In this document: in pieces, positions 56,727 to 62,230 of the stretch
How positions within the stretch are numbered: position 1 is the first letter of the stretch
How the letters are laid out: each line of letters opens with the position of its first letter
From: Nodosilinea foveolarum
GTDB lineage: Bacteria > Cyanobacteriota > Cyanobacteriia > Phormidesmidales > Phormidesmidaceae
Direction of reading: 5' to 3'
Assembly: GCA_003242035.1 (NCBI GenBank)
Contig: QBMC01000004.1
Location: 1-64,000, forward strand
Length of the DNA stretch: 64,000 bases
Notes under the pieces: generated by a model
What the model was told of the DNA's origin: nothing
Seen by the model: only the letters and a program-made list of their open reading frames with translations
Databases searched by the model: none
Made by a program: the position numbers and the translations under genes

Positions 56727-57353
56727 CTAGTCATGAGATTCAGTCGTTTCGACTTGGGCGATCGCATACCGAGCCGCCGCCAAACTCAGCCTAGCCTGCT
56801 CTAGCGCCGATAACTTATCCCAGTCAGCCTGCCGCACAGAAATCACCGTCGCATCAACCAATTCTTCCGCCCCGCTGCTGCGCATTGCGAACGCCATCGG
56901 GCGAGCCATTACCTGCAAGTCGGCCTCACCAATTGCCGTGACCGTCCCTTTCACGCAGGCAATCATTTGAGCCACCATCGGCTGAGCGCTTTCGGAGAGT
57001 CCCTGAGTAGCCTGTTGAGCTAGCTGCTGAGCGCGATCGCTAATCGCCGCCAACACAGTCTCTGGCAGCCGCGTCGCAAACTTCTGTTTTAGCAATGCCA
57101 AAACATCCACATTCGATCCCGCCCAGATCTGATCGAGTTGCACCGACAGCCCTTGCCACCCGGAGATCGCCTCTTCATCAGAAATTTCTAGCGACTGACC
57201 TGCCGTCTCTAAATCTTCCTCGTAGCTTTGTGTCACTGAACCGGGGAGCCAGGGGTAACTCTGTTCCATCAAAACTGACTGCAACAGCTCAGCCTGCGTC
57301 TTAGACAAATCGGGATTGCCCGGATGGTTATTAGAGGAGGAAGGATTAACCAT
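56727..57353 (-). CDS. hypothetical protein
   Basis: Probable start MVNPSSSNNHPG (track ORF extends to 57428); helical, no recognised domain; ends at AKVETTESHD-type tail. Confidence 0.6.
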   Translation of the reverse strand: MVNPSSSNNHPGNPDLSKTQAELLQSVLMEQSYPWLPGSVTQSYEEDLETAGQSLEISDEEAISGWQGLSVQLDQIWAGSNVDVLALLKQKFATRLPETVLAAISDRAQQLAQQATQGLSESAQPMVAQMIACVKGTVTAIGEADLQVMARPMAFAMRSSGAEELVDATVISVRQADWDKLSALEQARLSLAAARYAIAQVETTESHD

Positions 57354-57479: not shown

Positions 57480-59195
57480 CTAACTCGATTCGCTCTGACT
57501 TACTACCATAAACTCTAGCCTTGGCCCATCAGCCTTATTGCCAAAGCGAATTTGCGTTCCTGGAGCCAGCGTCACCTCTTGCCGATGTACCCCGCGCCAC
57601 ACGCCGTCTTGCAGATAAAACGTCCCAAATCGCGAGTCATCTTTCAAAAAATAAACGCACTCCAAAACGCCCTCGACTCCGCTTTCTGAGTGCTGACTCA
57701 TCATCCGCCGATGAAAAATCTCGGCATGGCTACTCGACACCCACTGCTCAGAAAGCACCAAATCATTGCTCTGCTGTCGGCCAATCCGCAGCCCGTCGCT
57801 GTCAATTACCCAGGTCTGAGCCGGATCGTCAGCATCCCTCAAAATGGCCTGTTCCTGACGCAGCAAACTGCCCGCGCTCGGATCAAACTGCGTGGTGGTT
57901 TCTAACGATTGCAGTAGCTCCCCGTCAAAATCGGGATGCATGTAGAGCACAGGCAGCGTCCAAGCGGGCTGATTGAAATGGTAAATCGCCAGCAAAGTCT
58001 GACGGGCCACCGCCACCGCTTCGTCAACCGGACGACGCTCGGCCAGCGCCTGCGTAAATACCTGAATAAACCGAATCGCCTCATCATCCGCAATCGAGTC
58101 GCGCATGGCCACCACCGCCGGTAACCCATGATGCAGCAGCACCTCGGCCAAACTACTGCGAGGCAAAGACTCCGTCTGAGTTTGCTCAGGCTGCGCCCCC
58201 CAGCAGGTGTTAAATACGGTCAGCTTCACCCTAGCGCGAACCAGCATCTGAGCCAGCTCCGTCCCGCTGAGCGTATCTTCTGATAGATACAGCAAACCGC
58301 CGTCTGCCCCCGGAACGCCGTGCCCAGAGTAAAAGAAGACGTTGTAGTCGCCATTATCTAATTGGCGCACTAGCTCAGTTGCGCTGGGCTGAAGCAGCAC
58401 GTCTACTCGTCTTTGAGCAGAACGCAAGTTCAAATCGCTGCTGCGCTCTAAAATTTGCTTCAGCAGCTCGGCCTCTTTAGCCAAATGTAGCTGAGAGTTA
58501 GGTCTATTTTCTTCGCCCGGTTTGCCTAGCACCAGCAAAATTTTCAATGACGGGTCTAGCTTACCTAGCTCTAGCTCCTCTACATCGCTGCTCGTCCGGC
58601 TAAACAGAATTTTCTTGCCGTTTAAAGACAGCGCCTGACTACCAGGCTGAGGCTGCATAATCTCCCAGGGCAGCGCGATAATTTCTGGACAGCGAATCTC
58701 TAGTCTCACTCGCAGCGGCAGCTCTCGCCCGGTCGCAATGCCTCTAGAGCGCTCAAAGCTACTTTCTACCGGCCCGCTAAACAGCCAGCGCCACAGGTTA
58801 ATGCCCAAATGCTGCATATAGCGGCTGCTATAGCTTTCTGGCTGGCCGTTCTCGATTTCCTCGGGTACGCTTGCCATCACCGGTTCGATCATTGCCTGCG
58901 CATTTAGCTCGGAGCCTAGCTCTGGCACGATATGCGGAACTTGAGGCAGCCCGCGCAGCGAAAACATGGTTTGCCAACTGTGCCAGGCTTGCGCTAGCTC
59001 CGCATCCCAAGCGCAGTCGTGATGGACATGGCCGCTAAGGTGAGGCGATCGCAACACCCAAATCGCAAACCGATTCTCAATCGGCAGCGCTGGCCTAATT
59101 TGGTCTTCCGGCGGCATTGGCGCAGCCTCTTTGGGGGAGAATCGCTGCAAACTATCGACCACCAGCCACAGACACAAAGTATCCTGGTTAGCCAT
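57480..59195 (-). CDS. CHAT-domain (caspase-like) protein with C-terminal FHA domain
   Basis: CHAT His/Cys dyad context NVFFYSGHGVPGADGG and LTVFNTCWGAQ; FHA core LRIGRQQSNDLVLSEQWVSSSHAEIFHRR...DDSRFGTFYLQDG. Confidence 0.9.
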   Translation of the reverse strand: MANQDTLCLWLVVDSLQRFSPKEAAPMPPEDQIRPALPIENRFAIWVLRSPHLSGHVHHDCAWDAELAQAWHSWQTMFSLRGLPQVPHIVPELGSELNAQAMIEPVMASVPEEIENGQPESYSSRYMQHLGINLWRWLFSGPVESSFERSRGIATGRELPLRVRLEIRCPEIIALPWEIMQPQPGSQALSLNGKKILFSRTSSDVEELELGKLDPSLKILLVLGKPGEENRPNSQLHLAKEAELLKQILERSSDLNLRSAQRRVDVLLQPSATELVRQLDNGDYNVFFYSGHGVPGADGGLLYLSEDTLSGTELAQMLVRARVKLTVFNTCWGAQPEQTQTESLPRSSLAEVLLHHGLPAVVAMRDSIADDEAIRFIQVFTQALAERRPVDEAVAVARQTLLAIYHFNQPAWTLPVLYMHPDFDGELLQSLETTTQFDPSAGSLLRQEQAILRDADDPAQTWVIDSDGLRIGRQQSNDLVLSEQWVSSSHAEIFHRRMMSQHSESGVEGVLECVYFLKDDSRFGTFYLQDGVWRGVHRQEVTLAPGTQIRFGNKADGPRLEFMVVSQSESS

Positions 59196-61795
59196 TAACT
59201 CTCACAGCTCCCACGCTGGTCGGGCGGTAAATTGGGAGCGCCCATAGCAAACTGCTCGACGCTGCGGCTTAAAGCCCAACCCTGATTGCCTGGTGACAAC
59301 AGCGACACACCACCTGGGGCTAGCGGCAAAGCTGCGTCCTCAGTCGATTTAACGGGCGCAGATCCTTCGACTGGCGTTTCAGCGAGGCTATTTCCCGACG
59401 GAATTGTACAGACCTTGAGCTGCACCCATTGCGCAGCGGCGACCGGTTCGAGCGCAACTATTTGAGCGATCGCACCGACGGGTATTGTAAAAGGAACCGC
59501 ATTGGGCAGGCTGCCATCCTCGGGGTTGGGATAAATCAAAATCTGAGTCGCTCCCTCAGTCGGCAAAACATCGCGATCGCTAATGCCCGGTGTTGCGGTA
59601 GCGGTATTTCTGGCCGTATTTCTGGCCGTATTCCTGACCGTGTTACCAGATGTAGGCGCAGAACTCGATGCTCGGCGAATCCGCACATACGCACCTTTAC
59701 TCAGGTCAACTGGAGGGCTAGGTACTGGAGCAGAGGCAGCGCCCGAGCTGATTTCTTCTTCATTTAAGGATTCTAATGCACTCGGAGAACTCGCCACTGG
59801 CGCACTAAAGCGATTAGTCAAGTCGGGAAGGAGGAAATAGAGTAGCCCGCCAGCCCCCGCTAATATCAGTAGGGCAATGCCCCCTTTCAAGACTCCAGAG
59901 GCCGCGTTTGAGGGTTTGGACTTAGGAAACTGTTGGGTCTGTCCCGTTAATGACCGACCGCTATCAGTGTCATCAGCGCCCGCCATCAGTTGAGTCGTAG
60001 CGGTGTCTTCGCTTGGACTGCGGGTAGCTGAATCAGCGGACGCTAGCGAGGCTAAACCCGTCTGAGACCGCGATCGCTTTTTACCCAGCGGCAAACTCGT
60101 CACTGGTACAGCCGCTGTCTCTGCTCCCTGCGCACGAGTGGCCAACTCCCTGGGCACCATGCGCTCCGAAGGCAAGGCAACCCTCACCCCCACTAAACCC
60201 ACTGTTACGTTGTCGTGGCCGTTGTATTTATTCGCAATCTCCACTAGCTGCTGGCCCACAGCCGACACCGAACCCGAGCCGACTACCAGTGGCCTTAGCA
60301 CAGAGGGCCAAAACTGCTCGACGCGATCGCTATCACTCAACCCGTCCGAGCACAGCAAAAACAAACAGTCTTCGTCCATCACAAACCGCTGCACGGTTGG
60401 CCGCAGCGTTTGCGATGGCCCCATTCCCAAAGCCTGAATCAAAGATCCTGAGCCTGGTTGAGTGAGCGCCTCTCGATACAAACCACCGGCTAGTCTCACT
60501 TGCCGAGAAGCCACATCGTCATCTAGCGTTACCTGCTGGCAGTTTTGCTGACTAATACGATAGGCCCGACTGTCGCCCAGATGCGCAATATAAACATCAG
60601 CCCCTTTCATCAGTGCCAGCACTAACGTAGTGCCCATGCGATCGCGAGCCTGTCGCTGCGCCTGATCGTTCTGAGCCGAAATCTCATCGTTAGCGGCGCA
60701 AATAGCCTCTTCTATCGCCAGCGTCAGCGCTGTCGAACTCAGCCCAGGCGCATCTGTCATTAGCAGCGGTTCTAGCTGATTGCGAATCGTCTCGATCGCC
60801 AGCTTAGAAGCAATATCGCCCCCCTGATGTCCGCCAATGCCATCACACACAATCAGCAGTTGAGGACTCGCTGTTGTCTGCTGCGAAGTGACTGACGCTG
60901 TCGCCCCACTTTCCGGGTAGCAGGCATCCTCATTGCGTTTGCGAGTCGGCCCTTGATCGGTATATACGGCTAAGTCGTAGTTCACCGTTTGGCCCTCTGC
61001 GCAGACCGCGATCGCCGCCGAAAGTCGTTCACAAAGCTGCTCTACCGAAAGCTGCTGCCGCTCCAACTGCTCACATAGCCGTTCTAGAAAAGCTCGCACC
61101 GCTTGATTCGCTTTTTCTGCGAGTGATCGCCAGCTCAAACCCAAATCTATCAGCGTTGGCTGCTGCGTTGATTGCCCAGCCAGCTCAGCAGAGGTTGCTC
61201 CCGCCGCTAGCGCCAACAGACGAACAATCGATCCATCCACTCGCAGCAAATTTGCGTCCAGCAGCGTCGCGGCCACCTGTTCTTGAACAAAAGGCTCCCA
61301 AAGCTGAGCAATCTGCCACAACCAGCTAAGCTGGCGCAGCGGTGGCGCACTTTTCCACTGGCTGCTGAGCGTCGGCAGCAGTTCCGGTACATGGCCTGGG
61401 CCAGCCGCTGTATCGGCCTCTACACCCACCGCCAGCGCACTCGACTCCAGCATCGTCACGTAGTCACCATCCGGCGTTTTCATCACCGAATAAACCCTGG
61501 GCACATGCAGCGGATAGGCCGACAAATGCAGATAGGCCGTTAGAAAGGTAGGCAAATCGGGCGGCGATTCTGGAACGAGTCCGGGCTTAGTATCTAGAAA
61601 GGTGCGATCGCGCTTAAGTAAATAGCGCTGATTCACCAGGCTGTTGACCTTCAGCGTAGAGACCAAATCTCCCACGCCCCAAAGATAGTAGTGAGGCAGC
61701 GCACTCTGACAAACCTGGCAGACTAACACGTCCTCAGGATTCACCGTTTTGCAGCTAGGGTTAGGGCAATTAATCACTAAACTTAAATCACTCAA
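59195..61795 (-). CDS. PP2C-family Ser/Thr phosphatase with N-terminal zinc-ribbon/pseudokinase-like region and C-terminal TM plus SH3-like tail
   Basis: CPNPSCKTVNPEDVLVCQVC ribbon; PP2C motifs DQGPTRKRNEDA, LLIVCDGIGGHQGGDIAS, IAHLGDSRAYRI, LLCSDGLSD, GHDNVTVGLV; TM GGIALLILAGAGGLLYFLL. Confidence 0.92.
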   Translation of the reverse strand: MSDLSLVINCPNPSCKTVNPEDVLVCQVCQSALPHYYLWGVGDLVSTLKVNSLVNQRYLLKRDRTFLDTKPGLVPESPPDLPTFLTAYLHLSAYPLHVPRVYSVMKTPDGDYVTMLESSALAVGVEADTAAGPGHVPELLPTLSSQWKSAPPLRQLSWLWQIAQLWEPFVQEQVAATLLDANLLRVDGSIVRLLALAAGATSAELAGQSTQQPTLIDLGLSWRSLAEKANQAVRAFLERLCEQLERQQLSVEQLCERLSAAIAVCAEGQTVNYDLAVYTDQGPTRKRNEDACYPESGATASVTSQQTTASPQLLIVCDGIGGHQGGDIASKLAIETIRNQLEPLLMTDAPGLSSTALTLAIEEAICAANDEISAQNDQAQRQARDRMGTTLVLALMKGADVYIAHLGDSRAYRISQQNCQQVTLDDDVASRQVRLAGGLYREALTQPGSGSLIQALGMGPSQTLRPTVQRFVMDEDCLFLLCSDGLSDSDRVEQFWPSVLRPLVVGSGSVSAVGQQLVEIANKYNGHDNVTVGLVGVRVALPSERMVPRELATRAQGAETAAVPVTSLPLGKKRSRSQTGLASLASADSATRSPSEDTATTQLMAGADDTDSGRSLTGQTQQFPKSKPSNAASGVLKGGIALLILAGAGGLLYFLLPDLTNRFSAPVASSPSALESLNEEEISSGAASAPVPSPPVDLSKGAYVRIRRASSSAPTSGNTVRNTARNTARNTATATPGISDRDVLPTEGATQILIYPNPEDGSLPNAVPFTIPVGAIAQIVALEPVAAAQWVQLKVCTIPSGNSLAETPVEGSAPVKSTEDAALPLAPGGVSLLSPGNQGWALSRSVEQFAMGAPNLPPDQRGSCES
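59604..59644. repeat. 12-bp tandem repeat inside the PP2C gene
   Basis: gtatttctggcc gtatttctggcc gtattcctgacc gtgtt encoding (N-T-A/V-R)n. Confidence 0.9.
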
Positions 61796-61888: not shown

Positions 61889-62230
61889 CTATTTAGACGC
61901 TTCTACAACCCGAGGAAGACCCATGCTGTAGTTCAAAACACGGTTTTCCAGGTTGTAACTAATATCTCCCGACTTTAGCAGGGCGCGGACAAAGTGCTCT
62001 AGATCCGAGCCAATCCGCCTCAGATTATAGTCCGTTAGCGTCTCTCCCTTATAGTCATCAACTAAACGATCAAATTCCTGATTCACCCTTTTAACGGCTT
62101 CGTCTGTCCAGTTAAACTCATTCTCTGGATCAATATCTAGCGTCAGCTTATCTTCACTAGGCACTATCTCGTTATCTTCAATCGTCGCCGCATAAATTAA
62201 GACATGGCGGGTTGTAGACTTTAGCAGCAT
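61889..62230 (-). CDS. ndhM: NAD(P)H-quinone oxidoreductase subunit M
   Basis: MLLKSTTRHVLIYAATIEDNEIVPSEDKLTLDIDPENEFNW...LVDDYKGETLTDYNLRRIGSDLEHFVRALLKSGDISYNLENRVLNYSMGLPR. Confidence 0.96.
   Translation of the reverse strand: MLLKSTTRHVLIYAATIEDNEIVPSEDKLTLDIDPENEFNWTDEAVKRVNQEFDRLVDDYKGETLTDYNLRRIGSDLEHFVRALLKSGDISYNLENRVLNYSMGLPRVVEASK

Follow-up and report, generated by a model that had tools for sequence, protein, structure and literature searches.

What is the function of a CHAT-domain protease gene that lies next to a PP2C-type phosphatase gene in a cyanobacterial genome, and do these two genes make up a system of their own? This question is raised by a stretch of 64,000 nucleotides from Nodosilinea foveolarum (positions 1 to 64,000 of contig QBMC01000004.1, assembly GCA_003242035.1), the whole of which is called the window here. 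A sequence-only reading of the window had described a two-gene system, in which a PP2C is paired with a CHAT protein that carries an FHA domain (CHAT-FHA) and the protease could be gated by phosphothreonine. Our analysis did not bear out a system of two genes. The best co-occurring and tightest partner of CHAT-FHA is a third gene, which had been missed and which encodes a helical orphan protein of 208 amino acids (aa), not the PP2C.

We investigated 292 sampled genomes of the phylum and found an orthologue of CHAT-FHA in 68 of them. Four further genomes matched the CHAT-FHA query through HetF only and were kept out of this number. Counted with no phylogeny correction for kinship between genomes, CHAT-FHA and the third gene were both present in 67 genomes, CHAT-FHA alone in 1, the third gene alone in 3 and neither in 221; that is, the third gene was found in 67/68 of the genomes with CHAT-FHA and in 3/224 of the others. 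The two genes were adjacent in 50 of the 67 genomes, and their co-occurrence held in the unlinked genomes too. When the neighbour genes of CHAT-FHA in 80 loci were clustered, about 70 of the loci proved to have a gene of some 208 codons as the next one downstream. In families f6 and f14, both genes are patchy and vary together. In G237, the sole CHAT-FHA genome without the third gene, a repeat search at a loose E-value of 1 again gave no match to it. In one (G005) of the three genomes with the third gene alone, an intact PP2C gene and an intact third gene flank a short remnant from the FHA end of CHAT-FHA (L199:3233-3945). This remnant indicates that CHAT-FHA has been deleted there. The third protein is predicted to be all-helical; no homologue of it was found in Pfam, NCBIfam or plasmids, and its predicted fold had no significant match in the PDB.

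Both domains of CHAT-FHA passed the curated Pfam cut-offs (CHAT, 8.6e-19 and 68.5 bits versus 24; FHA, 3.7e-9 and 37.3 bits versus 20.7), as did the PP2C_2 match of the phosphatase. The CHAT motifs YSGHG and NTCWGA and the FHA motifs GRQQSND, SSSH and FGT were present, in agreement with the active-site and FHA residues that had been read from the window before. Conservation was counted over 111 CHAT-FHA sequences, in all of which H292 and C331 were invariant (111/111). For the FHA residues, S487 was retained in 110/111, H490 in 109/111 (one row is gapped) and R473 in 98/111. The classical Asn of the NGT motif was mostly replaced, with Y, F or W in 96/111 and N in 13/111. The FHA domain of NBS1, which has Tyr at this position, still binds phosphothreonine.

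The AlphaFold2 (AF2) model of CHAT-FHA has a mean predicted local distance difference test score (pLDDT) of 77.5. Foldseek matched it to Csx29/TPR-CHAT, SAVED-CHAT and separase, and also to FHA domains, so the predicted fold agrees with those of active CHAT proteases and FHA domains. A phmmer search of CHAT-FHA against PDB sequences gave no match, and these relatives were found by fold comparison only.

The nearest curated family of CHAT-FHA is HetF (NCBIfam NF045509), a protease of cell differentiation and the best-studied cyanobacterial CHAT protease. The match reached 167 bits versus a cut-off of 1200, covered model positions 66-392 only and was limited to the CHAT part of the protein. We rejected the assignment of CHAT-FHA as HetF itself because of this low score and because the genome of the window has a distinct HetF gene (G000:C11), which matched over its full length with 662.6 bits, itself under the curated cut-off. 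A separate HetF gene was found in most CHAT-FHA genomes too. In a tree of the CHAT domain, CHAT-FHA and HetF formed two sister clades with the same active-site motifs in the same order (Y-x-GH..., VFN-x-C-x-G). HetF is longer and has transmembrane (TM) and TPR parts (PMC8406250), whereas CHAT-FHA has the FHA domain and an N-terminal part of 120 aa of its own. HetF and CHAT-FHA are ancient paralogues, and where HetF has its TM/TPR part, CHAT-FHA has an FHA domain instead. The FHA-bearing paralogue is widespread, yet it appears to be undescribed in the literature searched. As to the function of HetF, a review states that PatU3 could be degraded by it (PMC12288457), and the arrangement proposed here for CHAT-FHA is reminiscent of this. 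In one genome of family f7 (G051, locus L210), CHAT-FHA occurs together with the third gene, yet HetF was not matched at an E-value of 1e-150; HetF is otherwise present in f7.

The phosphatase of the locus is a receptor-like single-pass membrane protein. From the N-terminus, a zinc ribbon, a conserved domain and the PP2C domain are followed by a linker of variable sequence, a single TM helix and a tail that is predicted to be extracytoplasmic. The motif set had been described as complete, and this holds: DQGPTRKRNED, DGIGG, SDGL and DNVT are present, and the metal-binding residues D290, D318, D484 and D528 were invariant in 30/30 orthologues (alignment A2). The matches to the NCBIfam models PRK14559 and Stp1 were under their cut-offs. 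The catalytic domain with its metal-binding residues is shared with Stp1, PstP and PphA. The window PP2C differs from them (score of 154 versus a cut-off of 230) and adds the zinc ribbon, the N-terminal domain, a juxtamembrane motif, the TM helix and a tail with a Cys pair.

The region of aa 32-272 (61080-61700) is strongly conserved (Q155, W158-Q161 and an LW motif) and is common to the PRK14559 paralogue family. A kinase-like fold for this region was rejected, with an hhalign probability of 2% and no Pfam Pkinase match in the 30 orthologues. The tail is variable in sequence apart from its two highly conserved Cys residues, and it may be a disulfide-bonded or redox sensor domain.

Two similar PP2Cs were found in most of the genomes sampled. 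Anabaena is likewise said to have two similar PP2C-type phosphatases. One of them, PrpJ (all1731) of Anabaena PCC 7120, is reportedly a plasma-membrane PP2C required in heterocyst maturation. PrpJ may well be orthologous to the window PP2C, which is a lead from the literature. We found no link between PrpJ and a CHAT protease in the literature searched.

How could the two proteins be connected? In the variable cytoplasmic linker of the PP2C we found a motif, T-[QKRE]-hydrophobic-hydrophobic, at a median of 16 aa before the TM helix and typically in the form KTQVIP or KTQLVAP. A hydrophobic residue at +3 agrees with a common preference of FHA ligands. We tallied the motif in 55 CHAT-FHA genomes, 21 genomes without CHAT-FHA, 12 paralogous PP2Cs and 52 named loci, and took the expectation from shuffled linkers. 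It was present in 37/55 of the CHAT-FHA genomes (5.6 expected) and scarce elsewhere (2/21 genomes without CHAT-FHA, 1/12 paralogues). The named loci, the species of which partly overlap with the genome set, had it in 24/52 (4.5 expected). It was also commoner where PP2C and CHAT-FHA are linked (25/30) than where they are unlinked (12/25). In G005, with its FHA remnant, the motif of the PP2C is gone as well. Once phosphorylated on its Thr, the motif would be a candidate for the ligand that the FHA domain of CHAT-FHA binds.

The pairing of PP2C and CHAT-FHA proved to be conserved well beyond close relatives. The PP2C adjoins CHAT-FHA in 39/67 sampled genomes, and most of the named loci with enough upstream sequence have it upstream of CHAT-FHA in the same orientation. 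In the window, the positions of the two open reading frames were confirmed, and the PP2C stop codon and the CHAT-FHA start codon have one base in common (TAATG); the DNA reads ...gagagtTAATGgct... The overlap had been taken to imply coupled translation. It is real in the window, but apart from the window it was found only in the closest relatives (L068-L070), while the genes at other loci are mostly 40-400 bases apart. Translational overlap as a conserved trait of the family was therefore rejected. A search for conserved promoters gave matches on a par with shuffled sequence, so we make no call on operon structure. At one locus (L203, genome G127), PP2C and CHAT-FHA are on the same strand about 10 kb apart, with an apparent insertion between them.

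The coordinates of the features are listed in Table 1.

Table 1. The three genes of the module, their parts and the flanking marker gene, with positions in the window.
Feature	Position	Strand	Evidence or remark
PP2C-type phosphatase gene, 866 aa, TTG start	61795..59195	minus	Open reading frame; Pfam PP2C_2 1.3e-16; 30-member alignment
N-terminal four-Cys zinc ribbon (C10, C15, C26, C29)	61709..61768	minus	At least 90% conserved; Pfam DZR in 25/30 orthologues
PP2C catalytic domain, aa 274-536	60188..60976	minus	phmmer to solved cyanobacterial PP2C 5iti/2j82, E ~1e-24; invariant Asp
Juxtamembrane Thr motif GQTQQF, aa 618-623, candidate phosphothreonine ligand	59927..59944	minus	Motif enrichment and position
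TM helix, aa ~634-659	59819..59896	minus	Hydropathy 2.43
Predicted extracytoplasmic tail with Cys pair C796, C864	59195..59818	minus	Cys at least 90% in alignment; topology inferred from single TM helix
CHAT-FHA gene, 571 aa, ATG start, HetF paralogue	59195..57480	minus	Pfam CHAT and FHA; HetF model score; tree; AF2/Foldseek
CHAT caspase-like domain, aa 131-403	57987..58805	minus	Pfam; alignment
Putative catalytic dyad H292 and C331	58320-58322 (H292); 58203-58205 (C331)	minus	Alignment of 111 sequences
FHA domain, aa 470-552, with R473, S487, H490	57540..57788	minus	Pfam; alignment; Foldseek to FHA structures
Third gene, 208-aa all-helical orphan	57353..56727	minus	Locus neighbour counts; genome co-occurrence; AF2 pLDDT 84
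ndhM	61889..62230	minus	Pfam NdhM 1.5e-51; conserved neighbour upstream of PP2C; location marker, not functional part

The gene ndhM was found beside the module in 50/80 loci. Viral contigs had no relatives of the module, and plasmids had remote CHAT matches only, with no copy covering the whole protein and no third gene. PADLOC gave a weak match of 20 bits, and no Cas7-11 or SAVED partner was found in the neighbourhood of the window or in recurrent neighbour clusters. A defence role, which had been mentioned for some systems with CHAT domains, was not supported by these results, and we rejected the reading of the locus as a defence system. The location beside ndhM, the absence from viruses and the remoteness of the plasmid matches argue for core physiology over mobile defence, and the module looks like vertically inherited core signalling. 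Directly downstream of the module, 22/80 loci have a convergent gene that encodes a fusion of an FHA domain with a PrsW intramembrane metalloprotease (L199:4677-6032 and 21 among L091-L142); these loci have a second protease with an FHA domain next to the first. This FHA-PrsW family is absent from the genome of the window, which has the module.

The module is well supported by these results, and its mechanism, from phosphorylation onward, is what we infer. We tentatively prefer, with slightly less than even confidence, a vertically inherited cyanobacterial module of three components, in which a membrane receptor phosphatase controls CHAT-FHA through the FHA domain and the helical partner is a substrate or regulator. 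A Hanks-type kinase encoded elsewhere would phosphorylate the juxtamembrane Thr of the PP2C, and possibly other targets. The FHA domain of soluble CHAT-FHA would bind the phosphothreonine, by which CHAT-FHA would be brought to the membrane or switched there, and the PP2C would remove the mark, with its outer domain tuning the activity. The activated CHAT protease would then make a specific cut. The 208-aa helical protein may be dedicated to this protease as its substrate or regulator, much as Csx30 is to Csx29. Gating by phosphothreonine had been proposed before the motif was seen, and the motif gives it new support.

Csx29 (TPR-CHAT) and its dedicated substrate Csx30 are encoded in the same locus in Craspase, a type III-E CRISPR system (PMC10028731). 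The CHAT fold and the layout of a protease with its partner in one locus are shared with the module. However, the module has no CRISPR, TPR or RNA sensing, its predicted gate is phosphothreonine, and the third protein has no PDB fold match. SAVED-CHAT and separase likewise share the caspase-like fold, whereas CHAT-FHA has an FHA domain instead of a SAVED domain and is not in defence loci.

Several points weigh against the preferred mechanism. PP2C is unlinked to CHAT-FHA in about 40% of the genomes. Besides cleavage, an adaptor or inhibitor role of the third protein is compatible with the data. In the AF2 model, the loop 332-336 after C331 has a pLDDT below 50, and the geometry of the active site is not fixed by the model. 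The FHA Arg is substituted in about 10% of the orthologues, including L018, L019 and L021, the PP2Cs of which retain KTQ. The window copy of the motif, GQTQQF, is degenerate compared with the usual KTQVI or KTQLV, and the closest named relatives L068 and L069 do not match the motif expression. The motif was also spotted in the alignment first and tested afterwards. Because it was noticed before testing, is degenerate in the window and is kept in three lineages without the FHA Arg, we take the motif as a lead that falls short of proof.

It is also possible, though somewhat unlikely, that CHAT-FHA and the helical protein are the real pair, a protease with an obligate inhibitor, adaptor or substrate, and that PP2C has another function and is no more than a frequent neighbour that shares the locus of ndhM. 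The third gene tracks CHAT-FHA nearly one to one, many genomes that lack CHAT-FHA have an orthologue of PP2C, and in f11 lineages the CHAT/third pair lies away from PP2C while PP2C is still near ndhM. However, PP2C is upstream and co-directional in most lineages, its Thr motif correlates with both the presence and the linkage of CHAT-FHA, and an FHA domain requires a source of phosphothreonine.

Another explanation is that the FHA domain binds other phosphoproteins (of the divisome, of transcription or among kinase targets) on which the PP2C acts, and that the Thr motif is a ligand of a kinase or of another FHA protein such as FHA-PrsW. The convergent FHA-PrsW gene at 22/80 loci and the lineages that retain the motif without the FHA Arg are in accord with it. 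We consider it unlikely, given that the motif tracks the presence of CHAT-FHA and that the genome of the window has the module and no PrsW family member. Abortive infection or cell death, in which the third protein would restrain a toxic CHAT-FHA protease until a stress or phage signal sets it off by way of PP2C, fits with the best fold matches (the CHAT of Craspase and SAVED-CHAT systems) and with CHAT-FHA almost never occurring without the third gene, but the conserved single-copy chromosomal locus near ndhM, the PADLOC score and the viral and plasmid searches make it very improbable.

The preferred mechanism, if right, would mean that reversible threonine phosphorylation gates a caspase-like protease in bacteria, which is testable by single-gene deletions in model cyanobacteria. 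For such proteases, the input and the partner or substrate are usually missing; the module offers candidates for both, namely the receptor phosphatase with its Thr motif as input and the orphan as partner or substrate. It might even stand for a caspase pathway of a new class in bacteria, gated by phosphothreonine, with a receptor PP2C that has its own docking site for CHAT-FHA, which in turn cleaves or is controlled by the helical orphan, but this is somewhat unlikely. If it were true, bacteria would have an equivalent of the phospho-controlled signalling of separase and caspases, and the two arms of heterocyst control that belong to PrpJ and HetF would be tied to one module that is older than heterocysts.

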